Source of the DNA: Flagellimonas hymeniacidonis
GTDB taxonomy: Bacteria; Bacteroidota; Bacteroidia; Flavobacteriales; Flavobacteriaceae
NCBI RefSeq assembly: GCF_008040165.1
Contig: NZ_VRUR01000001.1
Span: 1,569,349-1,633,348 of the forward strand
Reading direction: 5' to 3'
Length of the DNA stretch: 64,000 bases
The notes under the pieces are model-generated. The model was not told the DNA's origin. It was given only the letters and a program-made list of their open reading frames with translations, and did not search any database. The position numbers were made by a program, and so were the translations under genes. Numbering within the stretch: the first letter of the stretch is position 1; every line of letters begins with the position of its first letter. Positions 42,980 through 61,175 of this stretch are shown here, in pieces.

Positions 42980-43876
42980 TTAGTTATCTATGTAATCCAC
43001 CAGTTTTTCAGGACCTTCCAACAAAATCCGGACTATTTGAAGTGTGCCATCTGGTTTTGTGGCGATTTGCCATTTGATCAATGAAATCTTACCATTTTCC
43101 ACCTCAATACCTGTAATACTCCTTGGATGCACGCAACTGCCATCATTGAAAAATGGAATCTCACCAGGTTCTGGAAACCTCGGTCTATGGGTGTGCCCAG
43201 CTATTGTAATACGCAGGTTGTTCCCAACAATCCAGCGTTTAATTCGTCTTTCAATACGGATAAGTTCCTTATAATTTTTAGCTGGACTTGTTGGGTCGGC
43301 TATACCCACAACTTGCAATGGTTTCCATAGCACACGAACCAAAAAACGCCCAATACGCCAGCAAACGTAGTTCCACCAATCTGCTTGGTGTCCGTGCGTA
43401 CAAAATAGTTCTTGGCCTGTATCACGATGCTTTAGTATGAGTGCTTCATGATAGGTAATGCCTTCAAAAAGCTCTTTGTCCGAATCGTCAATAGGTTCAA
43501 AATAACTGGAGAGGTGTTTGTCTACATAAGACTGGTCTCTATAAACCATATCATGGTTTCCCCATACCATGTAAAGCCTGTTTTCTAGATGAAATTGACT
43601 TAAAAGCTGATAAACGTTTTTATGGGCTTCAAAAATTGATTCGAAACTAAGATTTTCCCATAATTCATCGCCATCACCTAGTTCGCAATAGCGAAACCCC
43701 TCTCTATAGTAGTGATTTAGGGCATGGAAGTAAATGTTTCGGTTGTTGGCAAAATCATCTGCAAAGCTATTATCTCCTCGGTGGCAGTCGCTGAAAAATA
43801 TGAACTTGTCCCTATCATCAAAAGCAACAATTCTTGCATTTTTGTAGGCACGATCTAGCCTGGTACGGGATGACAT
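42980..43876 (-). CDS. Calcineurin-type metallophosphoesterase
   Basis: Cytoplasmic phosphoesterase of 298 residues with the full motif series: FFSDCHRGDNSFADDF, CELGDGDELWEN, MVWGNHDMVY, LFCTHGHQADWW and ITIAGHTHRPRFP. The GDGDELWE form and length recall UDP-2,3-diacylglucosamine hydrolase (LpxH)-like enzymes, but the substrate is not settled. No signal peptide. Monocistronic, 100 bp downstream in gene order from the divergent GAF-domain gene. Confidence 0.88.
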   Translation of the reverse strand: MSSRTRLDRAYKNARIVAFDDRDKFIFFSDCHRGDNSFADDFANNRNIYFHALNHYYREGFRYCELGDGDELWENLSFESIFEAHKNVYQLLSQFHLENRLYMVWGNHDMVYRDQSYVDKHLSSYFEPIDDSDKELFEGITYHEALILKHRDTGQELFCTHGHQADWWNYVCWRIGRFLVRVLWKPLQVVGIADPTSPAKNYKELIRIERRIKRWIVGNNLRITIAGHTHRPRFPEPGEIPFFNDGSCVHPRSITGIEVENGKISLIKWQIATKPDGTLQIVRILLEGPEKLVDYIDN

Positions 43877-43991: not shown

Positions 43992-46367
43992 ATGAAGGAG
44001 AACGCCAATGCGGAAAGTCCTATGCTTCAATTTGTAAGTTTCAATAAATTATTGCAACATTATGATGAGCAGTTAAAAAGTAAGGACAAATATCTATCGG
44101 ACAGAGCAAAATTTGTTTTGGATGCCGTCGCTCCTTTCCCAGAACTGAGAGAGGGTTTTAACGATGTTGAATTGTTAGAGAAGCACAAGGATGTTATTGG
44201 TATTATCTTGGCTGATACTTTTGCTCCAGTACTTACAAAGAACGAAATAAAGACGGCTTCCACTCCTTTTGAAAACTTGGTTTTTAATTCTTCAGAACGT
44301 TTTCAGAATATTTTAAAGGCAGCAGGCAAAGGATTTGAATTGGAAATCCGGAATATGCCTATGGATCTTAACTATATTATGAAGTGTACCGTAGTGCTAA
44401 GCTTTTACTACGGATTTAAAATGGACTTTAAACGTCCGCTTTTCTATGATATACCAGACGCCAATGGCGTAATGAGGCACTATAGAATCCTGTATAATGC
44501 AGATTTTATGGAGATTATACCCACAGAAAAGGCCAAGGAACTTACACAGGATGATGTTGATGAGCTTTTGGAAAATTTTGATAATCTAGACTTATGGAAG
44601 GAGAAAATTCCTCCAAACAGTTTTCTATCAAAAGGTTTCGTTATCTCCAATATGTTCGATGTTACTGCGGAGCATTCCATTTCTGGGATAAAATCTACAT
44701 TAATTGGGAGCAATAAAAGAGGCACTGAAAATTTCATGGACAATTTTCAAGACACTTTCAGGTCACTTTTTAACCTTAAGAAAATAAACGTTGGTTTTAC
44801 AGGATATGATGCCAATGCCAATAGGTTTTTAAAGATTTATGGAAAGGGTATAGAGAGTCATATTCTAAAGGGCAAAGAAACGGAATCCTGTGATGCCATG
44901 CTTTGCGGCTATTCTTATGATAAGTTGTTTAAGGACAATACCTATTTTGCCATTTCCAATGTAGAAAAATACTTTAAGAAATCTGAGGGCAAACAACAGC
45001 CCTATAAAAACCTACATGAGCAGGGCATAAAAAGTGCCATCTTAGCACCAATTGCCGATAATGGAGTATTGCTTGGTGTTTTAGAATTGGTCTCTGGGAC
45101 AGTGAATGAACTTAACAGCGTCAATGCCAATAAGCTTGATGATGTGATGCCATTTATCGTTTCTGCAGTGCTAAGATCTATCGAGGAGGAGGAAAATCTT
45201 GTAGATGCTATTATCCAACATGAGTGCACCACGGTTCATTCATCAGTTTATTGGAAATTCCAAGAAGAAGCAAAGCGCTTTATGGCTGATGAATTGGTTG
45301 GAAATCATCCTGTTTTTAAAGAGATTGTATTTAAAGATGTCTATCCGCTGTATGGTCAAATAGACATAAAAGATTCTTCCAAAGAGCGCAATTTATCTAT
45401 ACAGCGAGACCTCATGATTCAGCTTTCTGAAATTAATGGTGTCTTGGAAGTTGCCGTAAAAAAATATAAACTCCCCATTTATGAGGAGCTTATGTTTAGG
45501 GTGAACGCCTATCTTGAAGAGGTAAGGGATGCACTGTATACCCATACGGAGCAAGCTGTTTTCGATTTTGTAAAAGAAGAAATTACACCGGTTTTCAATC
45601 ATTTAAAAAAGGAAGATACTAAGCTTAAAGCATTGGTTGAGACCTATGAAGCTCAAATAGATCCTAGCACAGAATCTTACTATGACCATCGTCGCAATTA
45701 TGATCAAAGTGTAATGGAAGCAAATATGGAACTGGCTGCTTTGTTGGACAAAAAACAAGTGGATGCCCAAGAAATGTTCCCACATTATTTTGAGCGTTAC
45801 AAAACCGATGGCGTGGAACACAATATGTACATAGGGAGTTCTATTGCCAACGATAGAAACTTTGATGAACTTTACTTAAGTAATTTAAGATTGTGGCAGC
45901 TTCAGGTAATGTGCGATATGGAGAATAAGTATTATGCCCTTAAGCCCAAATTACCGGTTAAATTAGATGTAGCTTCTTTAGTTTTGGTGTATAGTACCTC
46001 TTTGGCAATTCGTTTTAGAATGGATGAAAAGCGATTCGATGTGGATGGCACTTACAATGCCAGATATGAAATTATTAAAAAACGCATCGATAAGTCATAC
46101 ATAAAAGGAACTAACGAAAGATTAACGCAGAAAGGAAAATTGGCCATTGTATACTCTCAAAGAAAGGATGAGAAAGAGTATATGCGTTATATAAAGTTCT
46201 TAAAAGCAAAGGGTTACTTTACCAACAATATTGAAATAGTTGAGCTCGAAGGGCTTCAGGGAGTGACCGGACTTAAAGCTATTAGAGCAGAAATTTTGTA
46301 CAGGAAAGACACAAAATCTGAACGGACTTATACCTATGAGGATTTAATGGAAGAATTGAAGTCTTAA
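43992..46367 (+). CDS. Large GAF-domain protein
   Basis: Cytoplasmic protein of 791 residues. A GAF-like sensory domain occupies roughly residues 240-400: INVGFTGYDANANRFLKIYGKGIESHILKGKE..., IKSAILAPIADNGVLLGVLELVSGTVNELNSVNANKLDDVMPFIVSAVLRSIEE. The N- and C-terminal thirds are helical and unlike any family I know; the C-terminal part includes QRKDEKEYMRYIKFLKAKGYFTNNIEIVELEGLQGVTGLKAIRAEIL. No kinase, cyclase or HTH is present. GAF domains bind cyclic nucleotides or other small ligands. It converges on the HD-PycTM gene with a 10-bp gap, but co-function is only a hypothesis. Confidence 0.7.
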   Translation: MKENANAESPMLQFVSFNKLLQHYDEQLKSKDKYLSDRAKFVLDAVAPFPELREGFNDVELLEKHKDVIGIILADTFAPVLTKNEIKTASTPFENLVFNSSERFQNILKAAGKGFELEIRNMPMDLNYIMKCTVVLSFYYGFKMDFKRPLFYDIPDANGVMRHYRILYNADFMEIIPTEKAKELTQDDVDELLENFDNLDLWKEKIPPNSFLSKGFVISNMFDVTAEHSISGIKSTLIGSNKRGTENFMDNFQDTFRSLFNLKKINVGFTGYDANANRFLKIYGKGIESHILKGKETESCDAMLCGYSYDKLFKDNTYFAISNVEKYFKKSEGKQQPYKNLHEQGIKSAILAPIADNGVLLGVLELVSGTVNELNSVNANKLDDVMPFIVSAVLRSIEEEENLVDAIIQHECTTVHSSVYWKFQEEAKRFMADELVGNHPVFKEIVFKDVYPLYGQIDIKDSSKERNLSIQRDLMIQLSEINGVLEVAVKKYKLPIYEELMFRVNAYLEEVRDALYTHTEQAVFDFVKEEITPVFNHLKKEDTKLKALVETYEAQIDPSTESYYDHRRNYDQSVMEANMELAALLDKKQVDAQEMFPHYFERYKTDGVEHNMYIGSSIANDRNFDELYLSNLRLWQLQVMCDMENKYYALKPKLPVKLDVASLVLVYSTSLAIRFRMDEKRFDVDGTYNARYEIIKKRIDKSYIKGTNERLTQKGKLAIVYSQRKDEKEYMRYIKFLKAKGYFTNNIEIVELEGLQGVTGLKAIRAEILYRKDTKSERTYTYEDLMEELKS

Positions 46368-46377
46368 CTTAGGGATG

Positions 46378-47568
46378 TTACAATCTAGCTGATCCCCCCA
46401 AAAAGTGAAATGATATTCCAAATGCAAGTACGGAAATTACAATACCCACAATAAAAATGGTGTAAGTCAACCGTAATATCTTGTATTTTCTATTCAAGAC
46501 AAGTCCCAAAAAGTAAAGATCTTTTGTAAGTGAAGAATAGATATATTGGTTGTCCTTAATCAATTCTTGAATGGCCCATTCATAATCGTTTAAACTCATT
46601 TTGTGAAAGTTACCAAAAAACAAAAGGTTCACTTTTTTGTCTTCTACATCTTTTTTGGTAAACTGCCCGCTAGTAACGTTTGGCCTCGTTGCAAGTACCG
46701 CCAAAACCATGGATATCACACTAAAAGTTATAAATATAACCGTGGGGTAAATTAAATATGTGTTGGATGGATTGTCCAATTTTGGAATTAGGTTGGACAA
46801 TGCCACAGAAATAATAATAGCATTTACCGATAATAGGATGTTGGCTTTGGTATCGGCAATATCACTCAGGGTCAAGTGGTTCTTTAGGGTTACCCTAAAA
46901 AGTGTCTGGATTCCCCGGTCTGGACTTTCACTTTTGTATTTAGCTTTTAACGCCTCTTTTTTGGCAATCTTCTTTTCCGTCTTTTTTTCTTTGACCAGTT
47001 GTTTTAGATTGCGCTCTTTGCCCTCATTCCAGTTTTCTTTGGCATAATCAGAATAATACTGGTGCTCGTCCCTAAACATTTTAATATTCTCATCTCGCCA
47101 AGCTTTGTTGGAAAAGTTTGCAATATTGAGAAGCTCAAGCTCTTCTTTCAAAAAATCTGTGGTCTCCCAATAACTTTTTTGCGCAAAGTGCGAAGCGTCT
47201 GCATCTCTTATAATTTGCTCTTTTAAGTCAACAGGTTCATGGTATCTTTTAGTGGCCAAAATACAAGAGCATATATCTTTAATAGCCTCAGGGGCATAGT
47301 TGTTTTTAGTAAGAAAATCTGAGGCTATTTTGCAACTATTCTCCTCATGGTCTTCTACTCCCTTTGTATAGCCTACATCATGAAACCAGGCCGAAAGCAA
47401 TAACTTCTCATTTTCCAAATCTTCAAGATTATAAAAATTGAGCAATTCTTTAGTACTTTTAACCACACGTTGGGTATGCCGTAAATTGTGATATAAAAAC
47501 TTTGGATCTAATTTATTTTCCAAAAGTTCTGTGACAAAATGTTCAGTTTTTTCAACAATTTCCGACAT
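46378..47568 (-). CDS. HD phosphohydrolase fused to Pycsar-effector-like membrane domain
   Basis: Protein of 396 residues from ATG 47568. Residues 1-190: HD domain with metal ligands His31, His63-Asp64 (LLLSAWFHDVGYTKG), His74 and Asp122/124 (IIRDADASHF). Residues 190-230: a highly charged helix with many Lys and Glu. Residues 235-396: membrane domain with HLTLSDIADTKANILLSVNAIIISVAL, a second helix (YLIYPTVIFITFSVISMVLAVLA), NLLFFGNFHKMSLNDYEWAIQEL, and a last helix near the C-terminus. That pattern matches the Pycsar TM effector family (DUF5706/PycTM). No nucleotide cyclase is next to it. It may hydrolyse a nucleotide signal that gates its own membrane part. Confidence 0.82.
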   Translation of the reverse strand: MSEIVEKTEHFVTELLENKLDPKFLYHNLRHTQRVVKSTKELLNFYNLEDLENEKLLLSAWFHDVGYTKGVEDHEENSCKIASDFLTKNNYAPEAIKDICSCILATKRYHEPVDLKEQIIRDADASHFAQKSYWETTDFLKEELELLNIANFSNKAWRDENIKMFRDEHQYYSDYAKENWNEGKERNLKQLVKEKKTEKKIAKKEALKAKYKSESPDRGIQTLFRVTLKNHLTLSDIADTKANILLSVNAIIISVALSNLIPKLDNPSNTYLIYPTVIFITFSVISMVLAVLATRPNVTSGQFTKKDVEDKKVNLLFFGNFHKMSLNDYEWAIQELIKDNQYIYSSLTKDLYFLGLVLNRKYKILRLTYTIFIVGIVISVLAFGISFHFLGGSARL

Positions 47569-47585
47569 AATATTACTTTGAATCT

Positions 47586-47604
47586 CCAAAATACAAAATT
47601 TTGG
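47586..47604. promoter_or_regulatory. Dyad in the divergent promoter region
   Basis: CCAAAAT (47586-47592), five bases, ATTTTGG (47598-47604): a perfect inverted repeat in the 52-bp gap between the HD-PycTM gene and the phosphatase-barrel gene. It could be an operator controlling both. Confidence 0.35.
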
Positions 47605-47620
47605 AATCAACCTCATTGAT

Positions 47621-50600
47621 ATGAAAAAACATTACCTGTCAATCCTTTTATTGGTCATGGTTTCAAGCTGTGCCACATATGAAGCAAAGTATGATATCCC
47701 CTTTAATGGAAATACGGCATTGAACAACGAAGAAATTGAACATACCTTCTATCTTATTGGAGATGCGGGAAAATCTCCAATGGGAGACATGAATCCTGCA
47801 CTTAAAAAATTTAAATCAAGATTGGAGGGTGCTAACAAAAACAGTACCGCTATTTTTTTAGGAGATAATATCTATCCAGCAGGTTTACCAGATAAGAAGG
47901 ATTCTACCATAGCCTATATCAATGCAAAAAATGATTTGAACGCGCAATTAAAAACGTTGGTAGGGTTTCCTGGAAAAACTGTATTTATTCCTGGAAACCA
48001 TGATTGGTATAATGAAGGATTAAAAGGACTTAAAAGACAAGAAGAATATATAGAGAAAGAACTGGATAGCAAGGAAGTTTTTTTTCCTGAAAATGGCTGC
48101 CCTTTGGAAAAAATTGAAATAACGGAGAACATAGTTGTTATTGCAATAGACACAGAATGGTATTTGGTCAACTGGGATAAGCACCCCACAATTAATGATG
48201 ATTGCGAAATAAAAGATAGGGAAAGATTTTTTGAAGAATTAGAAAGTTTAATTAAGAAAAACAGGGATAAAACCGTAATTCTAGCAATGCATCACCCTAT
48301 GTTTACCTATGGATCTCATGGGGGACAATTTTCATTTAGACAGCATATGTATCCAAGGTCTACGGGTAAAATACCCCTTCCAGGCCTTGGTTCTGTGATC
48401 AACCTTTTAAGGAAAACATCTGGAGCATCATTTGAGGATCAGTCAAATAAGATATACAATCGATTGAAAAATAGGATTGTAACACTTGCACAGTATTCAG
48501 AAAATGTAATTTTTACATCTGGACATGAGCATACACTGCAGTATATTGTAGAAAGGGGTATTCCCCAAATTGTTAGTGGTTCTGGGGCAAAAAAGGGAGC
48601 AACTCGATTATTGAACGGAAGTAAATTTTCTACTGGCCAAATGGGTTATGCCATTTTAAAGGTATATAAAGATGGTTCTTCTGGAGTGGATTTTTATGGG
48701 CTTGATGATAATGGAGCTGAAGATTTACTATATAGCTCAGTAGTGTTGACTTCAGATAAAAAGAAAGTAAGCCGCAATTACAGTGATACATTTCCTGCTG
48801 AAATGGAAGCGTCTATCTACACAGATGAAGAGATAGATAGAAGTGGTTTTTATAAATGGCTTTGGGGTGAGCGCTATAGAAAATATTATGCTACAAAAGT
48901 AAAAGCGCCAACAGTACGTTTGGACACTCTGTTTGGGGGGCTCAGCGTAGTAAGAAAAGGTGGGGGAAACCAATCCAACTCTTTAAGGCTTGAACATAAG
49001 GATGGTAGACAATTTGTAATGCGAGCACTTAGAAAAAGTGCAGAACGATATTTACAGGCAATCGCTTTTCAAGAACAATATATTATTGGGGATTTTGAGG
49101 ATTCCTACACGGAAAAACTACTCATGGATTTTTATACTGGAGCCCATCCATATGCTCCTTTCACCATTGGGCCACTTTCTGATGCAGTGGGGATATATCA
49201 TACCAATCCAAAATTGTATTACATCCCAAAACAAAATGCACTTGGAGATTATAATAGCGATTTTGGTGGCGAACTTTATATGATTGAAGAACATGTATCT
49301 GAAGGTCATGGTGCACTAGCAAGTTTTGGATACTCAAATAAGATTGAAAGCACGTATGATTTAATCAATAAATTGAGAGAGGATGAAGAGTATAGCATTG
49401 ATAAAAATGAATACGCAAAAGCTCGCTTGTTTGATATGTTGATTGGCGATTGGGACCGACACGTAGATCAATGGCGTTGGTTGGAGTATGAAGATGCATC
49501 TGGCAAAAAGATTTTTAAACCATTTCCAAGAGATAGAGATCAGGCTTTTTCAATATGGGGAGATGGGGCATTAATGGCTTTTGCATCAAGAGCAGTTCCT
49601 TCTTTGCGGATTTTTGAAGGATTCAATGATGAGATACGAAGTGTAAAAGGGTTTAACTCATCACCGAGAACTTTTGCCTTGGATATGGCATTGCTTTCTG
49701 AAGCAGATATGGATGTATGGATAGAACAGGCAAAATTTATTCAGGAAAAAATAAATGAAGATGTTATTGACGAAGCGTTTTCCTCCTTCCCTGAAGAGGT
49801 AAATGATGAGACTATTTCCAACTTTAAAAAGACATTACTAAAAAGAAAACAAAACCTTGTGAATACAGCACAAGAGTACTTTAAGGTTATAAATAAATAT
49901 AGTGTAGTTACCGGTACGGACAAGGATGATTATTTTAGTATCAATTCAGGGGGGAACGGAGGCGTACAAGTAAGAGGGTACCGAATAAAAGGTGGAGAAA
50001 AGAAGGATTTATTTTTTGAAAGAACTTATGATCCAGAATTTACAAAAGAAGTCTGGGTATACGGTTTAGATGATGATGATGTTTTTGATGTGAATGCAGA
50101 ATCTTCTAAAATCAAAGTTAGAATTGTAGGCGGTCAAAATAATGACATATATAAGATTGCCGAAAAGTCCAAAAAAGTGCACACCTATGATTTTAAGACT
50201 AAAAAGAACACCTATGATGAAGCTTTTGGAGGGACTGTACATAACATAAATGATTACGATACCAATACCTATGAATTTCTCAAAATAAAAGCAAGTAACA
50301 ATCAGTTTTTGCCAACCATAGGTTTTAATCCAGACGATGGTTTAAGAATAGGATTTACAAATACCTATACTTTTAATGGTTTCAGGCAAAATCCGTTTAC
50401 GCAACAACATACCATTAATGCTGCCTATTACTTTGCCACTAATGGTTTTGATTTAGGGTATAATGGTGAGTTTGCCAATGTTTTCGAGAATGTCAATTTG
50501 GAGTTAAACGCGCACTTTACCAGCCCTAACTTTAGTATTAACTTTTTTGGCCTTGGTAACGAAACCCCAAATAACGACGATGAGCTTGAATTAGACTTTA

Positions 50601-51334
50601 ACCGAGTGAAAATAGAGACGATTAAGTTTGCACCTTCTTTGGTATGGAGGGGATATTTAGGTTCAAAATTTCGATTGGGAGTGTCTTATGAAAACTATGA
50701 TGTAGAAGAAACGGAAGGGCGTTTTATAGAAGGGTTTTTTACCGATGCTGGAAGGGATACCCAACAAGATTTCTTTGGAGTTGATGCAGAATATGGATAT
50801 TCAAACACGGATAACGAGGCTTTTCCGACCATGGGGATGAGCTTTTCATTGCATGGTGGTTACAAAACAAATCTACAGGATTCAGATAGGGCGTTTGGAT
50901 TTATTATTCCTAGCCTATCCATTGACCATCAGTTATGCTCCAATGGTAGATTGGTTTTGGCCACAAAACTAAAAGGGCATTTTAATATTGGAGACGATTT
51001 TGAATTTTATCAAGGAGCAAGTATAGGCGCAAACAATGGATTGAGAGGGTTTCGTTTCCAACGATTTACAGGAAAAACTGCGTATTTTCAAAACACAGAT
51101 TTACGCTACAGCTTTAGAAAAAGACAAACAGGATTGTTGCCGGTTACCCCTGGTATTTTTGGAGGATTTGATTACGGACGCGTTTGGCTACCACAAGATT
51201 CTTCAGATATATGGCACACTTCCTATGGCGGCGGGTTTTTCTTGAATGGAGCAGATATTCTCTCGGCTAATTTTGGGTTCTTCAATAGTTCAGATGGACC
51301 CCGGTTTGCTTTTGGAGTAGGCTTTGGATTTTAA
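47621..51334 (+). CDS. Phosphatase - CotH-like kinase region - outer-membrane barrel fusion
   Basis: Lipoprotein of 1237 residues (lipobox MVSSC, Cys17). Residues about 40-380: calcineurin-type phosphatase with GDAG (Asp48), FLGDNIYPAG, IPGNHDWYNEG, MHHPMF and SGHEHT. Residues about 440-760: a region with FVMRALRKSAERYLQAIAFQE, GGELYMIEEHVSEGHG, LIGDWDRHVDQWRWLEYED (Asp612-Arg-His614) and PFPRDRDQAFSIWGD (Asp638, Asp640). These are spaced as in CotH/Fam20/HipA-type kinases. Residues about 900-1237: beta-barrel with alternating strands, GLRGFRFQRFTGKTAYFQNTDLRY and final FAFGVGFGF, like surface-antigen/BamA-type barrels. The combination suggests phosphoryl transfer at the outer membrane. The kinase call is my inference. 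Confidence 0.8.
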   Translation: MKKHYLSILLLVMVSSCATYEAKYDIPFNGNTALNNEEIEHTFYLIGDAGKSPMGDMNPALKKFKSRLEGANKNSTAIFLGDNIYPAGLPDKKDSTIAYINAKNDLNAQLKTLVGFPGKTVFIPGNHDWYNEGLKGLKRQEEYIEKELDSKEVFFPENGCPLEKIEITENIVVIAIDTEWYLVNWDKHPTINDDCEIKDRERFFEELESLIKKNRDKTVILAMHHPMFTYGSHGGQFSFRQHMYPRSTGKIPLPGLGSVINLLRKTSGASFEDQSNKIYNRLKNRIVTLAQYSENVIFTSGHEHTLQYIVERGIPQIVSGSGAKKGATRLLNGSKFSTGQMGYAILKVYKDGSSGVDFYGLDDNGAEDLLYSSVVLTSDKKKVSRNYSDTFPAEMEASIYTDEEIDRSGFYKWLWGERYRKYYATKVKAPTVRLDTLFGGLSVVRKGGGNQSNSLRLEHKDGRQFVMRALRKSAERYLQAIAFQEQYIIGDFEDSYTEKLLMDFYTGAHPYAPFTIGPLSDAVGIYHTNPKLYYIPKQNALGDYNSDFGGELYMIEEHVSEGHGALASFGYSNKIESTYDLINKLREDEEYSIDKNEYAKARLFDMLIGDWDRHVDQWRWLEYEDASGKKIFKPFPRDRDQAFSIWGDGALMAFASRAVPSLRIFEGFNDEIRSVKGFNSSPRTFALDMALLSEADMDVWIEQAKFIQEKINEDVIDEAFSSFPEEVNDETISNFKKTLLKRKQNLVNTAQEYFKVINKYSVVTGTDKDDYFSINSGGNGGVQVRGYRIKGGEKKDLFFERTYDPEFTKEVWVYGLDDDDVFDVNAESSKIKVRIVGGQNNDIYKIAEKSKKVHTYDFKTKKNTYDEAFGGTVHNINDYDTNTYEFLKIKASNNQFLPTIGFNPDDGLRIGFTNTYTFNGFRQNPFTQQHTINAAYYFATNGFDLGYNGEFANVFENVNLELNAHFTSPNFSINFFGLGNETPNNDDELELDFNRVKIETIKFAPSLVWRGYLGSKFRLGVSYENYDVEETEGRFIEGFFTDAGRDTQQDFFGVDAEYGYSNTDNEAFPTMGMSFSLHGGYKTNLQDSDRAFGFIIPSLSIDHQLCSNGRLVLATKLKGHFNIGDDFEFYQGASIGANNGLRGFRFQRFTGKTAYFQNTDLRYSFRKRQTGLLPVTPGIFGGFDYGRVWLPQDSSDIWHTSYGGGFFLNGADILSANFGFFNSSDGPRFAFGVGFGF

Positions 51335-52191
51335 TCTAAAGTATACGAATACAGGTTTCGACCTTTTGTTTTTGATTGTTCATCAATAATCAATACCGTA
51401 TTATTATCCACAAAACAAATGGATTCTTGTTGAGTTCTATGCTTTACATCAATGGAACGAAGTGTTCCTTTGGTAAAATCATCTCCAGTAAAATCAGTGA
51501 ACAGCCATATATAACCAGAACCTAAAAGCACTACCTTTTTACCATCGGGAGAGATGTCAGCGGCAGTAATGGAACAGGACTGTGGGTCTAAGCATGAAAC
51601 GAACTTCCCTACCAGTTTTGCCGTATGTGACCCTTCTAGAGCAGGGATTTTATAAATAAAAGCCTTACCAGTATAAGGTCTAGTTCTATTTTTAGTAATG
51701 AGATAGAGGAATCCGTTTTGATAAAAGAATGCCTCACAATCGAACATTAATTTGGATTTTTTGGGAGGGAATTTTTTTTGTTCAGGATAGTGAAATGTTA
51801 TTTTTTCTGCTTCAATTTTCTTTCCTGTTTCATTGTTTGGATTAGGAAGTTTATAGATTGAAAGATTTTTTCTGTCATTTGCATTATTGCCAAAATTTCC
51901 AATATAGATATTCCCTTTATCGTCGTTAGCCAAATCTTCCCAGTCGTCGTTTTTGGCATTTTTAACCTTGAATTCCTTGATTAATTTTCCCTCATTATTA
52001 ATGGCATAAATATGGTCTTTGTTACCATTATCCTCAATTACCCATGATATTATGCTGTCCATGGAAGCAATTCCAGAAACTTCGCTGAGTTTTGATGGGA
52101 GCTTCCCCAAGTAAGTCAAATCCCCATAATAGGGCTTTTGGGCACAGCCTTGAAGAAAAATCAGAAGAAGTAAAAGTGTAACCCTACTCAT
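51331..52191 (-). CDS. SdiA-regulated-like beta-propeller lipoprotein
   Basis: Lipoprotein of 286 residues with lipobox IFLQGC (Cys15). The mature protein has propeller-like repeats: LSEVSGIASMDSIISWVIEDNGNKDHIYAINNEGKLIKEFKV, DWEDLANDDKGNIYIGNFGNNANDRKNLSIYKL, ITAADISPDGKKVVLLGSGYIWLF and QESICFVDNNTVLIIDEQ. This resembles the SdiA-regulated/esterase-like phytase-type propeller families, without a firm catalytic assignment. Its ATG overlaps the end of the SRPBCC/GyrI gene by 8 bp, so both are one transcript. The stop shares TTAA with the convergent phosphatase-barrel gene. Confidence 0.65.
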   Translation of the reverse strand: MSRVTLLLLLIFLQGCAQKPYYGDLTYLGKLPSKLSEVSGIASMDSIISWVIEDNGNKDHIYAINNEGKLIKEFKVKNAKNDDWEDLANDDKGNIYIGNFGNNANDRKNLSIYKLPNPNNETGKKIEAEKITFHYPEQKKFPPKKSKLMFDCEAFFYQNGFLYLITKNRTRPYTGKAFIYKIPALEGSHTAKLVGKFVSCLDPQSCSITAADISPDGKKVVLLGSGYIWLFTDFTGDDFTKGTLRSIDVKHRTQQESICFVDNNTVLIIDEQSKTKGRNLYSYTLD

Positions 52192-53118: not shown

Positions 53119-54447
53119 TTATTGAACCATTTTTAGGTTATCCACCACAAACGCACCTAAACTTCGCCCTTGGTTTACACCAATGTCCACTGCGGCGCGA
53201 TAATGTATCCCGCCATACATTCTGCTAATAGCAGCTTCATCCGATGCTTGGGTAAAAGAGGTGAACGAACGAACCGGCAACCCGTAAGGAACCTCGGTAT
53301 TATCATCAAATGCAAAATTGTCTCCAAAAATGTCTGTTAAAACAGTAGCGGCAGCTCCTGAAACTACACTGTGGCCACTAGTATATTCTGGAAATGGAGG
53401 TGTTTGCAGTATTGGAGTCCAATTTTCATCAATATGCTCATTTATAAGCGTTTCTGGACGAATAAGATTACTTCTATATTTTTCATCCCAACAACTTATG
53501 AAAGCATCAGCCATGGCAATTGATGCTTTGGTATAGGCATAAATGGTTTTGTTGACATCTGCATTGGACTTTCTGCTTGCAATTTTCGTAATTCCAATCC
53601 AATGAGCGCCTGGGGTAATCTTTTTTGTAGCAAACATTAAATGACCTCTGGTAACCGAAACATAAGGGTTGCAGTCCCAAAACTGTGCAATTTCAACTTC
53701 TTCAGAGGTATCGCCTGCAGCTGTAATTTTGTTACTGATATCGTACACTTCTTGCAATTCTTTATAAAAATCGGAATCTTTTTCCATTGAAAATGGCGGA
53801 GGAGGAGTAGGTTTAAATTGACTGGCGGAATCAATCACAAAAGGTCTTATTTTGCTCCAATGTGGTTCTATTCCGGCCATATACGCTGGAGGGGTAGGTT
53901 GCCATCTAGACGGATTATCCGTATCCACGGTAAACTTGGGCATGGTTCGGGTTTGATTGTAGTTGTCCCCATTCATCCATTCCGTAATGTGCTCAGCAAC
54001 TTCAAGACCGTAGGTCTTGGATTCCATGAATTCCTGCTCATTTTTTTCTTCCCAAAGGGTATAGAGGCTATCTCTATAGGCCTCAATTCTATCTTCGGAA
54101 AAAATTAGCCGTTTGCTTACTTCCATATGTGCAATCAATGCTGCCAATTCATGGTTTATTTTCTTTCCCTCAGCCAGAGCGGGAATAGGTTTTAAATCTT
54201 TTACCTGATTTGCCAAGGATAGGTATTCATTTTCTTGCGAAGCTATAATTTCGTACGCTGCCACATTTGGATAAGCAAAAATTCTACTGGCCACTGGCGG
54301 CGAAAAAATATCATGGATCATGACTTCCGTTACTTTATCTATGGCATTATGGAAGTCATCAGGAGAAATTGTTATAGGTTCATTTTCCTTTGCACAGGAA
54401 ACAAATAGCACTGCAGATAGGAACAGTAAGCCGATACGTGCTTTCAT
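53119..54447 (-). CDS. Vanadium haloperoxidase / PAP2-family lipoprotein
   Basis: Lipoprotein of 442 residues (lipobox VLFVSC). Three PAP2 motifs are present: KYRSNLIRP (K-x6-RP), PEYTSGHSVVSGAA (SGH) and SRMYGGIHYRAAVDIG (SR-x5-H). This superfamily holds vanadium-dependent haloperoxidases and acid phosphatases; the spacing and 440-residue length fit the bacterial haloperoxidase-like branch. Halogenating activity would suit a marine bacterium, but many such homologues may be phosphatases, and I cannot choose from sequence. It lies 12 bp after the first VCBS giant gene and likely belongs to the same operon. Confidence 0.85.
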   Translation of the reverse strand: MKARIGLLFLSAVLFVSCAKENEPITISPDDFHNAIDKVTEVMIHDIFSPPVASRIFAYPNVAAYEIIASQENEYLSLANQVKDLKPIPALAEGKKINHELAALIAHMEVSKRLIFSEDRIEAYRDSLYTLWEEKNEQEFMESKTYGLEVAEHITEWMNGDNYNQTRTMPKFTVDTDNPSRWQPTPPAYMAGIEPHWSKIRPFVIDSASQFKPTPPPPFSMEKDSDFYKELQEVYDISNKITAAGDTSEEVEIAQFWDCNPYVSVTRGHLMFATKKITPGAHWIGITKIASRKSNADVNKTIYAYTKASIAMADAFISCWDEKYRSNLIRPETLINEHIDENWTPILQTPPFPEYTSGHSVVSGAAATVLTDIFGDNFAFDDNTEVPYGLPVRSFTSFTQASDEAAISRMYGGIHYRAAVDIGVNQGRSLGAFVVDNLKMVQ

Positions 54448-54459
54448 TAGTTTGTAGTT

Positions 54460-57400
54460 TTAATTCAGTATTCTATAGGTTTGGGCTTTATCGTTATTTA
54501 GTGTTACCAGAAGATAAGTAGCTTTATCCAGCGTAATTACATTAAGATGTCGTACAGATTTCTGAGTAAGCTCTAAGCCCAAATCATCACCCAAAATTAT
54601 ACTATTTTGATTGTTTATCAATGCTCCTGGGAAAGAATCGAACCTGCCATGAAATGGAGTTACTCCAAAGTAATTCCCAGCTGCCAAAACTTCGTTGTCA
54701 GAATCACCATCAAAGTCATAAGATAAAAAAGAAGTTATTGGTGAAACCTGTAGTTGTGCGTTGAAGGGGACAAAAGTGTACTTTCCGTCCTCTTGTTGCA
54801 AATAGCCTGAGTGAAGTTCATGCACGGTCAATATTTCTGCCTTTTCCAGTGTTTTTTTATCAAAAAGTGCATCCATGGGTTTTCCAGCAAAATCCTTATA
54901 TGCATTGAATTTTTTACGAAGCGAAACTAGCTGCCCAGAAAGTTCATCGAGGCCTAAAAGCGGATAATATTTTCCATTTTTTTCTGTGGTAACGATGGTT
55001 TCCGTGCTGCCATTGCCATCAAAATCCATAAAATATAACTTCATGGGGCTTTTTTGGGAGGCCCTAAACTTGGAATTGACGCCCCAATTACCCAGAAGGT
55101 AATCCGTATCTCCATCCCCATCAATGTCAAAAGGTTGAATTGCCTGCCAAAGTCCATTCAAATCATGGTGAAGTAGTCTAACCTCTTCAAAGCCAGTGTC
55201 GGAATTTTTATAGAATTTGGGTGACATCCATTCTCCAATAATAATTAAATCATCAGCACCGTCGTTGTCAAAATCGGTCCAAACGGCATCCGTAACCATT
55301 CCGGCATTTTGGAAAGGGGTATGCTCTACTATGGAAAAGTTGCCTCCATCATTTTTTAGCAAATAGGAATTAGGCGTTTCTCCAAACCTTGAAGTGACCA
55401 CATTACCTCCAACAAAAAGGTCAATATCGCCATCTTTATCATAATCGTTTGCCTTGACCACAGAGGCATTTTCAAAATATTCAGGAAGATTGGATTTTAT
55501 AAATGATGAATCTTTTTGCACAAAATAACCATCTAACAACCGATTAGATTTTCCATAGAAATCAGCACCTCCAGAGCCCAAAAATATGTCGTTCTTTCCG
55601 TCGCCATTAAAATCTTTTATCAATGCAATTATGTCTTCTTTAACGGAGTCGTTATGAATCGAATTGATCTTGCGTTCTACAAAAGAGGTGTCTTGTTGCA
55701 TATAAATTTTAGATGGGTGGTATTTAGATCCGCCAAAGATTACATCTTCTTTTCCATCTCCGTTTAAATCCCCTGTAGCCGCAGCCGGACCTCTGTCTGA
55801 AACGCGATATGGAATGAGTTTCTCTCTGTTGAAATCAATATAATTGTCTTCAACATGCGTAAAATCCAAACCTAAATTGTCCTCTACGCTCTTAAAAAGT
55901 GGTTTTGTCTTGGGTTTGATGGATTGATAATCAAACAAAACGGGATTCGTTGGTTCAATTTTTAAGGTTTGATTTACAACAACATTTTTTACAGTTTGAA
56001 AGGACTTATCTGGCCAAATAATTTTTAAGGAGTCTATGGTTTGGGTCTTCCCATACCCAAAATGTAACATAGGCTCAGAACTTGATTGAAACCCTCTACT
56101 AGGATAAAGTTCCTTAAATTGTAAGGTGCCTTGATGATAGGAATAAACTTTTGTTCCAAGTCCAAAAGGGTTTTTCCCTTTATATTTAAATCGTATTTTT
56201 AGGTAATTGGATGTTTCATTGGTCTTGTTTTCATAAATAGTTGTTGGTCTATTTATATTATTGGTCACAATATCTAAATCTCCATCATTATCCAAATCCC
56301 CATATGCTGTAGCTCCAGAAATCAAGGTATCTTTAGTAATCCAGGTGGCTGATTTATTTTCAAATTGAAGGTCGTTGTTTCCTTTGAAGATGACATTGTT
56401 AATGGCTCCCGAAGGCATTAAGTCTAATGCTTTTTGATCCACCAATTTAGTATTGTCCAATTTTTTTTGAATCTGCTCATTGGATATAAAACGGATGTAG
56501 TCCAAATCATTTGGTCGCTTCGGAATTCCATTGGAAATGAACAAATCTTGTTCTCCATCTTGATTATAATCTCCAAAGAGAGCGCTCCAACTCCAGTCTG
56601 TGGCGGCAACACCACTCATTAAAGCAGTTTCCAAGTAATTACCACTAGGCTGATTTACATAGAGCATGTTACGGGTAAATTGGTAATGGTACCCATAACG
56701 CTGCGTTCGTAATCGCTGTACTTGAATGTTATCATCCCCTTCAGATGATTTTAGAGGAATCTCTTCTTCTGGAAGCATATCCAAGGAGATCAAATCAGGG
56801 AGTCCATCATGATTGATGTCTGCAACATCGCTACCCATTGAAAATCTGCTTGTATGGCCAAAATATTTTCGTAGGCTTTCGGTAAACGTACCGTCTCCAT
56901 TGTTCAAATAATAGTAATCATCCTCGTGGAAGTCATTTCCAACATAAAGATCCGGATAGCCATCCAAATTAAAATCAGAAACAGCAATTCCCAACCCATA
57001 CCCATTGATTCCTCCATAGATGCCCGCCTCGTCACTTACATCTGTAAATGTGTTTCCATCATTGCGTAAGAGCTTGTCACCGGTTTCATAATTTCTGGTA
57101 TAGCGCAAGTCTACTCTGCCAAAGGATTCTTGGGTATGCACTGCATGATTAAGGAGGTAAAGGTCTAGATCGCCATCAAGGTCATAATCTAAAAATGTTG
57201 CAGAAGAACTATAGGAATCAAAATCCAGTCCATATTTAGAGGCACTTTCTGTAAAAGTACTATCTCCATTGTTGATGTAGAGTTCGTTAGCACCTTCAAA
57301 TCCGTTAATGCCCACCACGGCACAAACATAAATATCCAAAAAGCCATCTCCGTTTATGTCCCCCATAACAGCTCCCGTGTTCCATGTGCTGTTTCCTTGA

Positions 57401-57708
57401 ACTCCAGATTTTTCAGAGATATCCTCAAACTTCATCTCACCTTTGTTTAGGTATAGCGCATTTTTTACTTGATTTCCCGACAAGAAAATGTCTGGAAGAC
57501 CATCGTTATTAATATCTCCGATGGAAACTCCTCCACCATTATAAAAATAGAGGTAGTCCAATATGTTCAAGTTATCTGACTCTGTAATTGTATTGGTGAA
57601 TGAAATCCCTGTATCCTCGGCCAACGGGTTGGAAAAAAGCTCGCCTTCCTTTTTCCCACAACTGAAAAGAAGGAAACAGAAGAGGTATGATAAAATACGG
57701 TTAGTCAT
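54460..57708 (-). CDS. Giant VCBS/FG-GAP lipoprotein with ASPIC/UnbV domain (copy 1)
   Basis: Lipoprotein of 1082 residues from ATG 57708 (signal MTNRILSYLFCFLLFSC). It carries many FG-GAP/VCBS repeats with the Ca-binding pattern DINNDGLPDIFLSGN, DINGDGFLDIYVC, DYDLDGDLDLYLLNH and DFNLDGYPDLYVGNDF, forming beta-propeller blades in both halves. In the middle is an ASPIC/UnbV domain (KNPFGLGTKVYSYHQGTLQFKELYPSRGFQSSSEPMLHFGYG). Its start overlaps the stop of copy 2 by 8 bp, so the pair is translationally coupled. In Bacteroidota such proteins accompany polysaccharide and surface-binding loci; the ligand is unknown. Confidence 0.88.
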   Translation of the reverse strand: MTNRILSYLFCFLLFSCGKKEGELFSNPLAEDTGISFTNTITESDNLNILDYLYFYNGGGVSIGDINNDGLPDIFLSGNQVKNALYLNKGEMKFEDISEKSGVQGNSTWNTGAVMGDINGDGFLDIYVCAVVGINGFEGANELYINNGDSTFTESASKYGLDFDSYSSSATFLDYDLDGDLDLYLLNHAVHTQESFGRVDLRYTRNYETGDKLLRNDGNTFTDVSDEAGIYGGINGYGLGIAVSDFNLDGYPDLYVGNDFHEDDYYYLNNGDGTFTESLRKYFGHTSRFSMGSDVADINHDGLPDLISLDMLPEEEIPLKSSEGDDNIQVQRLRTQRYGYHYQFTRNMLYVNQPSGNYLETALMSGVAATDWSWSALFGDYNQDGEQDLFISNGIPKRPNDLDYIRFISNEQIQKKLDNTKLVDQKALDLMPSGAINNVIFKGNNDLQFENKSATWITKDTLISGATAYGDLDNDGDLDIVTNNINRPTTIYENKTNETSNYLKIRFKYKGKNPFGLGTKVYSYHQGTLQFKELYPSRGFQSSSEPMLHFGYGKTQTIDSLKIIWPDKSFQTVKNVVVNQTLKIEPTNPVLFDYQSIKPKTKPLFKSVEDNLGLDFTHVEDNYIDFNREKLIPYRVSDRGPAAATGDLNGDGKEDVIFGGSKYHPSKIYMQQDTSFVERKINSIHNDSVKEDIIALIKDFNGDGKNDIFLGSGGADFYGKSNRLLDGYFVQKDSSFIKSNLPEYFENASVVKANDYDKDGDIDLFVGGNVVTSRFGETPNSYLLKNDGGNFSIVEHTPFQNAGMVTDAVWTDFDNDGADDLIIIGEWMSPKFYKNSDTGFEEVRLLHHDLNGLWQAIQPFDIDGDGDTDYLLGNWGVNSKFRASQKSPMKLYFMDFDGNGSTETIVTTEKNGKYYPLLGLDELSGQLVSLRKKFNAYKDFAGKPMDALFDKKTLEKAEILTVHELHSGYLQQEDGKYTFVPFNAQLQVSPITSFLSYDFDGDSDNEVLAAGNYFGVTPFHGRFDSFPGALINNQNSIILGDDLGLELTQKSVRHLNVITLDKATYLLVTLNNDKAQTYRILN

Positions 57709-60700
57709 TTTCAATTTTTTCAAAAAATAAAGGAGAGGAATTGTTGATGCCAACAATGTAATGGTCCTGTTTGTTTATTATTATTTTTTCAATACTTCGT
57801 GCTGGTCCGGGAATGTTAATCTCAAAATCGTTATTCCATTGAAATCCATTCTCGACAAAACGCAAAAGTATGCCATGTGATGCGTCCATCCTACCTAACT
57901 GTGTGCTAATTTCATAGTTGTTGCCAACGGCAAGGATATCCAATAGCCCGTCATTATCAAAATCATCTACTAACATATCGTTAATGGTAGAAACCTGAGC
58001 CATCTGGGGTAATCTTATCTTTTTGAAAGTATTATTTCCTGTATTCTCAAAATAGCAGCTGGCAAGTTCATAAACCTTTTTTTGATTAGCTTCTTTAAGT
58101 TTTTCCGAGCCAAAGAGTTCCTCTAAAGAGGCTTGGGCAAAACTTTTATAAGAAAGGAATTCCTTGTTTAGAAATGGCATTTGCTTCACCAGTTCGTCTT
58201 TAGAAAGGAATGGGGTTTCCTTTTCATCGTAAAAATAGGTGACCAAGGGTTCAATGGCCCCATTATTGTCAAAGTCTTGATTGTAAAGTGTGATGGGTCC
58301 CTTTAGCGAAGCCTTAAGCTTGCTGTTTGTGCCCCAATTGCCGGCAACCAAATCCAAATCTCCATCTTTATCAAAATCCTCGGCAATTACCGAATTCCAA
58401 AATCCATGTGTTTGGTCCAGACCATTATCCGAAATCAAATTCAAGGTTTTTCCATTGTTCATGAAGATAGAAATAGGCATCCAGTCTCCTACTACGATAA
58501 GATCTTCGAATCCATTTTTATCCAGGTCCTTCCAGAGCATGTCTTTTACATTACCTAAGGATTTAAGCGCTAAACAGAACGTTGAGGTAACGTCCTTGAA
58601 ATCACCTTTTCCATTATTTTGAAAAAGGTATTGTTCGGAGGTGGCTCCAAATTGTTGTGGAATTTGGTCAGATGCAATACTGATATCCATGTCCCCGTCA
58701 TTATCAAAATCCACTACTTTAACTTTTGAAGCATTAAGTTCCAATCCTTTAAAAGCTTCTGGATTAAATGTAAACTTCCCATTTATGTTAAGGTAAAGTC
58801 TGGGTTGTATTCTATTGGAATTTTTAAACTCATTTCCGGCACTAACCACGATTAAATCTTGGAAACCGCTTCCATTAGCGTCAAAAAAAACATGGGACAC
58901 ATCTTCATTAAATGAATGGTCAGAAAACACGGCATCCTGTTCCCTTACAAATGTCCCATCAGGGTTTTGTACGAAAAGCTGTGATGCTTGGCCCTTTGCT
59001 CCAGAGATAAAAATATCTTGAAGGCTGTCGTTGTTGATGTCGGTCACCGAGATGGAAGGCCCCTCATTGGTATTGGCAAAGGGAACCAAAGGATTTCTAT
59101 CGAATTCTACGGTTGGTTGCTCCTTATGTCTAAAGTGGATTATACTGTCTTTTTGAATAAAAAGCGTCGGTTTGCTTCCAATTCTGTCGGTGTAAAAATT
59201 GCCATTGGAATTCTGTACATCGACTTCAATTTTTCCCTTATCCACGGTTTTTAGCACTTGATATTTACCTCCTGGCCATATCACGATAAGGGAGTCTAAA
59301 ATGGAATCTTTGCCAATTCCTAAATGCATTTTATTGGACACTGCGGATAAATAACCTTTGGTGGCAAATTGTTCCTGGGTAAAGGTTTTTTTTGCCGAAT
59401 GTGCAATTATTTTGGCACCTATACCAAAAGGATTGTTCTTAGCCCCTTTAAAGCTTACCGTAATAGCGTTTTGATTAGGATTCTGTGAAGAAAGGGTATT
59501 TTCGAGAATAAAAGCTTCGGTGTTAACGTTGTTCACTACAAGGTCTAGATCCCCATCATTGTCCAAATCTGCATATGCGCACCCATTGCTATATGAATTT
59601 TCTTTTTGCAACCATGAATCCGTAACATTTTGAAAAGAAAGGTCTCCATTATTTTTGAAGAAATAGTTGGGCACTTTCTTTTCTGGAAGCTCTTTTATAA
59701 ATGCCATTTCTTTTTGGGACATTCCTTCCTCAATTTGTTTTTGGATTTTGTCGTTCGCAATAAAACTGATAAAATCCATGTCATTTGTAGCCCCTTTTAT
59801 GCCATTGGAAATAAACACATCTTTAAGACCGTCGTTATCAAAATCAGCTAAAAGAGTCCCCCAAGACCATTCTGATGCCGAAATACCACTCAAGGAGGCT
59901 ATTTCACTAAAATGAGCATTCCCCAAGTTCAAGTGCAGCGTGTTCTGCATATATTGTGGGGCAAATCCGTTTTTCAAGTATTGTTGATATACTGGATATG
60001 GATATTCCAAGCCAGAAGTTTTGTAGGTCTCAAGATTTTCGGGCAACATATCTAAAGAAATAATATCTGTAAGCCCATCATTGTTGATGTCTGCAATATC
60101 GTTACCCATAGAAAAATGGGAGGTATGGCCTAAACTGGAATCATCTTTCGAAATAATTTCATTGAACGTTCCATCTTTTTGGTTGATGTAGAGATAATCA
60201 TTTTCAAAAAAATCATTGCCTACATATATGTCGGGATAACCGTCATTGTTTACGTCACTTATTGCCAACCCTAGGCCATATCCTATGGAGCCTTGAAAAA
60301 TCCCAGCTTCAGCTGAAGCATTAACAAAGTTTCCAGCATCATTTCTGAATAAAATATCGCCAGACAAAGAATCTTTTTGCATTCTTTTTATACCCTTTCC
60401 GTAGGATCTATTGGGATTTACGGAATGATTGAGCAGGTACATATCCAGATCACCGTCAAGATCATAATCAAAAAAAGCTGCCTGTGTTGAAAATCCTGAA
60501 AAATTAAGATTGTACTTTGATGCTTCCTCCTTAAAGCTTGGTATTCCTTCTTTGCTTACTCCTTGATTAACATAGAGCAAGTTCGCTCCTTTTAAGCTTT
60601 TGTAGTTTCCAACTTTGCAGACGTATATATCCAGTAACCCATCATTGTTGATATCCACATGGGTTACTCCCGTAGTCCATCCATCGGCGTTATCGATCTT

Positions 60701-61009: not shown

Positions 61010-61175
61010 TTCATCAAAATAGGGGGAAAGATAACCATTCCCATAAAAACAATAAAAGCACAATTAGTTAATGTTTTACCGAAAAACATGCATCACATTT
61101 TATGAATTCCATAGTAAGATGTTGATTGTTGTATCGGCAAACAAACCAATGTATTTATGTTCAAAAATCCCGCAG

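Follow-up and report, generated by a model that had tools for sequence, protein, structure and literature searches.

A predicted outer-membrane lipoprotein of Flagellimonas hymeniacidonis with a phosphoesterase, a kinase-like domain and an Omp85-type barrel, and its linkage to an HD-PycTM gene

The closest described proteins to the one considered here are found within Omp85. According to the passages of Heinz and Lithgow (2014; PMC4104836) that concern it, a "Metallo" subfamily joins the Pfam domain PF00149, called a metalloprotease, to an Omp85 barrel; the same passages report some Omp85 groups without POTRA domains and suggest assembly roles for the new groups. A second described system that bears on the locus is Pycsar, whose membrane protein PycTM, in the relevant passage of PMC11224242, forms pores after cyclic-pyrimidine signalling. 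The gene in question lies in the window (the whole stretch of 64,000 nucleotides analysed, positions 1,569,349 to 1,633,348 of contig NZ_VRUR01000001.1 of Flagellimonas hymeniacidonis). It is a single open reading frame (ORF) on the forward strand, 47621..51334, which starts with ATG and encodes a protein of 1237 amino acids (aa), to which its own genome holds one match. The outline of the protein, a phosphoesterase fused to an Omp85 barrel, is already known, because the "Metallo" group, as those passages describe it, dates from 2014. The genetic linkage of the gene to a neighbour encoding an HD phosphohydrolase with a PycTM membrane domain (HD-PycTM) is a new result, and the middle domain, judging from its predicted structure, almost certainly has a protein-kinase-like fold.

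A first-pass annotation of the sequence knew of no description of such a protein. That holds for the kinase-like domain: no account of it in an Omp85 protein, nor of an HD-PycTM partner, was found in the open-licence literature, most of it titles and the beginnings of abstracts. It does not hold for the fusion itself. A paper on Riemerella OMP76 was considered as a relevant account and rejected, since it concerns a TonB-receptor-like protein. The parts of the gene, in window positions, are as follows.

47621..51334, + strand: whole gene, phosphoesterase, kinase-like domain, linker and Omp85 barrel; predicted outer-membrane lipoprotein
47621..47671, + strand: lipoprotein signal peptide, lipobox VSSC, Cys17 (read by eye)
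47747..48658, + strand: calcineurin-like metallophosphoesterase domain, about aa 43-346, its end placed by eye (Pfam PF00149 and metal-site motifs)
48842..49972, + strand: kinase-like domain as modelled, aa 408-784 (AlphaFold2 model, Foldseek matches in the PDB)
48935..48973, + strand: Gly-rich stretch aa 439-451 (GGLSVVRKGGGNQ), strand 1 and the turn that follows (conservation, position in the model)
49022..49036, + strand: Arg468, on predicted strand 3, with Lys472 (conserved in 92% and 98% of 84 sequences)
49433..49474, + strand: putative catalytic-loop region, aa 605-618, with D605, D610, D612 and H614 (conservation, register with HipA and CotH profiles)
49526..49549, + strand: DxD motif PRDRDQAF, aa 636-643, with D638 and D640 (conservation, alignment with the DxD in the CotH profile)
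49928..50245, + strand: beta-rich linker, aa 770-875, with repeats GTDKDD, GLDDDD and GGQNND (nine short strands predicted)
50291..51325, + strand: Omp85-type beta-barrel, aa 891-1235, 16 predicted strands (model; NCBIfam Omp85_fam below its cut-off)
51041..51052, + strand: LRGF motif, aa 1141-1144, in the long loop that joins strands 11 and 12 (modelled with confidence below 50)

Searches with the whole protein left the middle domain (about aa 408-760) unnamed in Pfam, NCBIfam and the PDB sequences, Pfam giving, besides Metallophos, only a chance-level row at 0.16. A candidate defence model of PADLOC that carries no description (PDC-M03A) matches aa 573-751 with an E-value of 1.8e-6, and a search of PHROGs returned only an undescribed family (9e-4). 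The structure was predicted by AlphaFold2 from an alignment of the window's protein with its relatives from 80 close loci, these being the best 80 of the relatives encoded by 429 of 450 candidate stretches in the genome collection (domain identity 58-88%). The model of aa 408-784 (mean pLDDT 86.2, pTM 0.88) runs through three strands, helices, two strands, a hinge, helices, the catalytic loop, two strands, the DxD motif and a helical C-lobe. Foldseek found 472 matches to it in the PDB at E <= 10, and the ten at E <= 1e-3 are six chains of CtkA (the best at 5.1e-6), RIO2, two of HipA and PI4KII-alpha. All of the best 50 of the 472 rows are kinase-like folds, most by their titles, with MSMEG_1954, YihE, two pre-40S chains and an entry titled "mdt protein" presumed by me to be so; Fam20 (4kqb) is in the list at E 0.011. 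Profiles compared by hhalign gave a score of 42.9 against a HipA set (E 6.6e-5), with the catalytic loop in register, and 32.7 against a CotH set (E 1.7e-3), with D612 on the catalytic-loop Asp of CotH and D638/D640 on its DxD. For scale, the CotH and HipA profiles score 42.2 with each other, 20 column shuffles per set reached maxima of 19.1 (HipA) and 18.3 (CotH), and unrelated profiles used as controls reached 20.4 (phosphoesterase) and 28.8 over 33 columns (barrel).

Some of these comparisons weigh against the assignment. For the ten best PDB matches the TM-scores (0.31-0.49) and rmsd (8-12 Angstrom) are modest, and the likeness is therefore one of fold level and not of close family. The CotH profile result is weak taken alone, because its score barely exceeds that of the barrel control. 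The comparison with HipA failed when confined to the N-lobe, and a profile search of PDB sequences gave five rows (E 0.15-1.6), none significant, with CtkA over the catalytic loop (E 0.19) second behind an unrelated row (0.15). A Pfam scan of 113 members returned 65 families, including sub-threshold HipA_C, CotH and Fam20C, and is not relied on because unrelated families score 0.0015-0.004; a separate scan of ten barrel-less copies gave chance-like rows only and no kinase family.

Conservation was examined in a set of 84 divergent Bacteroidota sequences that includes the window's. The window's own copies (L001 and L002) and domain matches shorter than 300 aa (L181 and the first ORF of L164) were left out, and the latter two were examined separately afterwards. 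G439, G440, G447, G448 and Q451 are each kept by 88-96% of the set, G416 and R420 by 99%, R468 by 92%, K472 and E556 by 98%, D610 by 99%, and D605, G649 and R742 by all. The first-pass annotation had proposed an atypical kinase region, to be given up if the fold were unrelated to kinases or if D612, H614, D638 and D640 were not conserved; the predicted fold is kinase-like (pLDDT and best 50 rows above) and the four residues are kept, beyond close homologues, by 92, 87, 92 and 92% of the 84, so that neither result counts against a kinase-like region, and the annotation's reading as a whole is supported in part. Of the two motifs on which it was built, PRDRDQAF is at 636-643 as given, and IGDWDRHVDQW is present with a true span of 608-618 instead of 608-617. 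The putative catalytic motifs are not chance, because copies that share 24-65% identity with the window's domain keep them.

The middle region (aa 411-780) is matched in 111 of 296 sampled Bacteroidota genomes. Aligned copies number 193, the window included: 147 in a phosphoesterase class (the domain preceded by over 370 aa and followed by a tail of barrel length), 33 with domain and barrel and 13 without a barrel (423-570 aa); L095, which ends at a contig end, was dropped before the barrel alignment. Within the phosphoesterase class D638 and D640 are present in 147/147 copies and D612 in 145/147, so divided that the triad of the three is complete in the window (1/1), in 80/80 close loci and in 64/66 wide loci. 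It is complete in 25 of the 33 domain-and-barrel copies and 11 of the 13 barrel-less ones. Because eight of the former, and three further divergent copies, lack at least one Asp of the triad, the family, as aligned, tolerates loss of the presumptive catalytic aspartates.

By eye, most of the 25 N-termini inspected in the two smaller classes resemble signal peptides, lipoprotein signals or membrane anchors. A simple lipobox pattern fits 88 of 144 phosphoesterase-class proteins and does not fit 56; the window's protein, called a lipoprotein from the start, bears VSSC with Cys17. From such N-termini the kinase-like domain seems to be exported. The barrel-less versions of 423-425 aa (L144, L154, L157, L159 and L160) have an N-terminal hydrophobic anchor and all carry C-F-(D/E)-C immediately ahead of the final residue. 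The loci L128, L129, L130 and L164 each contain two or three genes with the kinase-like domain, and one of the two L164 copies is degenerate. In G070:C10 and G019:C15 the kinase-like gene has, at a distance of no more than about 4 kb, a CotH gene that passes the Pfam cut-off.

The strongest functional clue, on which the first-pass annotation is silent, is the HD-PycTM gene next door. The neighbours listed here, and those of the other loci, come from greedy picking of ORFs and not from a gene finder.

46378..47616, - strand: HD phosphohydrolase with PycTM membrane domain, divergent, its true start perhaps at Met17 (PF18967 E 1e-36, HD E 4e-7)
51331..52191, - strand: possible SdiA-regulated-like beta-propeller lipoprotein, convergent, with a 4-base overlap (Pfam SdiA-regulated at only 0.038)
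43992..46367, + strand: 791-aa protein, member of the conserved block (GAF, sub-threshold, 0.036)
42980-43876: second phosphoesterase, in 68 of 80 close loci
53119-54447: PAP2 protein, in 72 of 80 close loci

The HD-PycTM protein has three hydrophobic segments, and its HD metal residues are conserved. It is found in 79 of the 80 close loci, adjacent in all 79, and 27 of the 30 genomes from the window's taxonomic family carry the pair. The propeller-like protein is found in 78 close loci (adjacent in 68) and the GAF-like protein in 72, as compared to 9 of 80 wider loci (about 12 kb each, their clusters named from one representative apiece). Among the 296 genomes PycTM (PF18967) occurs in 112, in 96 of them with the kinase-like domain, while 169 have neither (Fisher 7e-44, not corrected for phylogeny); of the 96 joint genomes, 65 have the two no more than 5 kb apart and 81 no more than 20 kb apart. 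Strong PycTM (E <= 1e-28), in many cases fused to an HD phosphohydrolase, is found in 95 genomes, 93 of which carry the kinase-like domain; where PycTM scores are weaker throughout (17 genomes, mostly with short frames), 14 do not. When occurrences were permuted inside each of the 15 variable taxonomic families, joint genomes averaged 58.6 and never exceeded 68 in 20000 shuffles, as compared to 82 observed, on a family map that omits single-genome families and 9 genomes.

Four things count against this association: the cut for strong PycTM was picked after viewing the list, phylogeny is allowed for by the permutation only and at family level, 18 of the 111 genomes with the domain have no strong PycTM, and G042 and G119 carry an HD-PycTM homologue with no domain in the fetched stretch. 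Among the 18, L175, L176, L177 and L180 have a small gene of the HD-domain cluster directly downstream. In G124 an HD/PycTM-cluster homologue and SixA adjoin the kinase-like gene. On balance it is very likely that the protein and HD-PycTM share a functional pathway.

Presence of the partner was then set beside the state of the triad in 91 of the 111 genomes, the 20 with no aligned locus being left out. At least one copy has D612, D638 and D640 intact in all 78 genomes with strong PycTM and in 5 of the 13 without (Fisher 1.5e-8, not corrected for phylogeny). Two of the 20, G014 and G124, were added later, and they lack both strong PycTM and the triad, making 5/15; G205, G217 and G240 stay outside the count. 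The ten triad-degenerate genomes span six taxonomic families, with four in one genus. Because the triad is intact with the partner and mostly lost without it, the alignments offer here their best argument, that the aspartates would do chemistry tied to HD-PycTM. The DxD is lost in L175, L176, L177 and L180, from one genus without strong PycTM, and G066 has a second, degenerate copy beside an intact one.

The same counts bear on whether the domain is instead a pseudokinase, which would retain the fold, and perhaps a site for nucleotide or phosphate, and serve without catalysis as a sensor or scaffold that regulates the phosphoesterase or the barrel. What calls most for caution about activity is that a hand alignment, with the PKA pattern as template, puts Arg468 at what appears to be the position where most kinases carry the beta-3 Lys, Lys472 lying four residues on. 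ATP is not expected in the periplasm, and the loss of triad aspartates in the eight domain-and-barrel copies and three divergent ones is what a pseudokinase might show. It would not readily account for the near-invariance of these residues in the phosphoesterase class, nor for an intact triad in every examined genome with the partner. I regard a pseudokinase as rather unlikely and lean, with reservations, towards a catalytically active kinase-like domain.

The complete calcineurin motifs noted at the N-terminus in the first-pass annotation are borne out. Pfam Metallophos (PF00149) matches aa 43-239 with an E-value of 6e-10, and in an alignment of 78 N-terminal domains from the phosphoesterase class, the window's among them, D48, D82, N126, H127, H224, H225, H302 and H304 are each present in 71 to 78. 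Both the Pfam match and the metal motifs thus place this domain among the calcineurin-like phosphoesterases.

The C-terminal barrel, also claimed at the outset with its final aromatic residue, is there as well. The model of aa 765-1237 (mean pLDDT 69.9, pTM 0.64) has nine short strands and then 16 barrel strands, the last residue is Phe, and the best 50 PDB rows are chains of BamA, the best matches, and of TamA or CdiB, or BAM complexes (5ayw being counted as BAM-type). The Omp85 model of NCBIfam reaches 48.8 of 200 bits at aa 1060-1233, far under its cut-off, and no POTRA domain appears at E <= 1 anywhere in the protein (Pfam, NCBIfam). LRGF is presumably the equivalent of the L6 motif VRGF/Y of Omp85, which I take to lie in the same loop in BamA. 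The three repeats of the linker (49928-50245), rich in D/N and of the form GxDxDD, look by eye like calcium-binding RTX units and are conserved in close relatives. Omp85 proteins whose topology is known have the region that precedes the barrel in the periplasm, and because of the homology of the barrel to BamA/Omp85 the phosphoesterase and kinase-like domains are, by this analogy, most likely periplasmic. Exposure of the enzymatic domains at the surface was considered and not adopted, and the surface location contemplated in the first-pass annotation is unsupported.

A barrel of BamA/TamA type, together with the roles that the cited passages of Heinz and Lithgow suggest for new Omp85 groups, might indicate an assembly factor whose N-terminal domains replace POTRA and only position substrates, enzymatic activity being secondary. 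The domain exists also without a barrel, however, in the 13 aligned copies mentioned, 11 of which have D612, D638 and D640, and I consider an assembly factor improbable.

The 80 wider loci contain HD/PycTM in 30 cases, the propeller family in 26 (25 adjacent), a cyclase-TPR cluster in 17 (15 adjacent), PPK1 in 16, and PAP2 and SixA-like genes in 9 each. Of the propeller family in these loci, two members and no others are matched by the propeller-like protein of the window. The HD/PycTM cluster there has 32 members, 22 with the length that the fusion requires and 10 short. PPK1 occurs in several taxonomic families (e.g., L129:922-3012, L133, L158 and L168), sometimes with a SixA-like gene, a possible link to polyphosphate. 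Within the window, 54460-61063 encodes two FG-GAP/ASPIC-UnbV proteins in succession, each about 1100 aa long; 60 of the 80 close loci hold a relative of the first.

Such neighbours (PPK1, SixA-like, PAP2 and cyclase-TPR genes) would suit an enzyme of nucleotides, lipids or polyphosphate, in which the kinase fold, the calcineurin-like domain and the HD partner turn over a small phosphorylated molecule of the envelope. PI4KII is among the fold matches, and HD and calcineurin families often act on nucleotides. The co-occurrence of PPK1 was given no weight, since 267 of the 296 genomes have this gene; moreover, there is no PPK1 among 26 scanned window proteins, and the closest folds are protein kinases (CtkA, RIO2 and HipA). 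A small-molecule enzyme is accordingly possible, though I would not expect it.

The computation supports the domain content, the fold, the conservation of catalytic residues, the type of barrel, the co-occurrence and co-location with HD-PycTM, and the loss of the triad mostly where the partner is absent. As to catalysis, donor, substrate, opposing activities, membrane side and contact with HD-PycTM, I infer the following. A BamA-type barrel and an N-terminal lipid anchor would hold the protein in the outer membrane. The middle domain, which may represent a new family within the HipA/CtkA-Fam20-CotH region of kinase-like folds, would act as an atypical kinase, adding phosphate (or nucleotide) to an envelope substrate, and the calcineurin-like domain would strip phosphate or cut a phosphodiester. 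The divergently encoded HD-PycTM, an inner-membrane protein and the usual partner, would probably couple the state of the envelope to the cytosolic HD phosphohydrolase. Nucleotides or polyphosphate are candidate phosphate donors. This mechanism in full, a periplasmic kinase/phosphatase pair on an Omp85 barrel that acts with HD-PycTM in envelope phospho-signalling, and the new family with it, seems to me about evenly poised between right and wrong. It is a more doubtful step to a trans-envelope system in which imported nucleotide or polyphosphate, and not cytosolic ATP, is the donor for the Omp85 protein's periplasmic kinase and phosphatase, and HD-PycTM is the receiver that passes the signal to a cytosolic HD output.

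Should the domain prove active, one protein of the outer membrane would combine a kinase with a phosphatase, in a compartment where ATP is not expected, which raises the question of what donates phosphate beyond the inner membrane. A testable function would then be shared by the "Metallo" Omp85 group and the HD-PycTM proteins, and the arrangement hints at phosphate-based signalling across the cell envelope of a kind not yet described.

Among known systems, the locus resembles Pycsar in that the neighbour at 46378-47616 carries the PycTM membrane domain, by Pfam and by PycTM and 2TM effector models. It differs in the HD fusion, in the conserved gene order and in that no pyrimidine cyclase was found adjacent. 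Members of the cyclase-TPR cluster (L185:7777-9741 and 16 other loci; 11 of the 17 full length at about 600-650 aa), whose representative is an adenylate/guanylate cyclase with TPR, usually lie downstream of the kinase-like gene on the same strand, and their weak match to PycC, together with PycTM, recalls parts of Pycsar. One might therefore think of anti-phage defence, with HD-PycTM as an effector gated by cyclic nucleotides and the outer-membrane protein as phage sensor or regulator; the effector models and the cyclase-TPR gene (PycC 3.8e-5) adjacent in 15 of 80 wider loci would be in its favour. Against these, no cyclase or PycC is among the 26 window proteins scanned (out of 42 ORFs of at least 200 aa in the window), the constancy of the pair in the family and in close loci is unlike patchy defence islands, and most genomes with only weaker PycTM (14/17) lack the kinase-like domain. 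Defence is very improbable, and the pair is not filed as Pycsar, because no cyclase is beside it and the genome's two Guanylate_cyc genes are elsewhere, about 300 kb away or on another contig.

The "Metallo" Omp85 proteins have PF00149 before the barrel, as here, and are probably the same proteins, likened by description and not by accession. The word "kinase" is absent from the text of that paper (PMC4104836), and its passages on the group name no partner gene.

For the middle domain the best fold matches are CtkA/HipA (PF07804), with the catalytic loop in register. The window's protein falls below HipA_C, which 3 of 113 members match (best E 0.19), and, unlike CtkA/HipA, kinases of the cytosol, it is fused to a phosphoesterase and a barrel and exported. 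No HipB-type antitoxin is adjacent, the neighbours being HD-PycTM and the propeller-like protein (ORFs below 120 aa not examined). CotH (PF08757) shares the catalytic-loop Asp and the DxD in register; the window's protein has no Pfam match to it, nor has any protein of its genome, and 2 of 113 members do (best 0.013). Fam20C (PF06702), likewise extracytoplasmic, is approached through the fold match to 4kqb, through the one member of 113 that matches Pfam (7e-4), and through FDxLxGDxDRH, which I take to resemble a stretch of Fam20C; the window's protein has no Pfam match, and its D-x-D presumably differs from the Fam20 metal motif. Because it does not reach any of these models, the protein is not filed as HipA, CotH or Fam20C, and most likely its kinase-like domain works like one of them.

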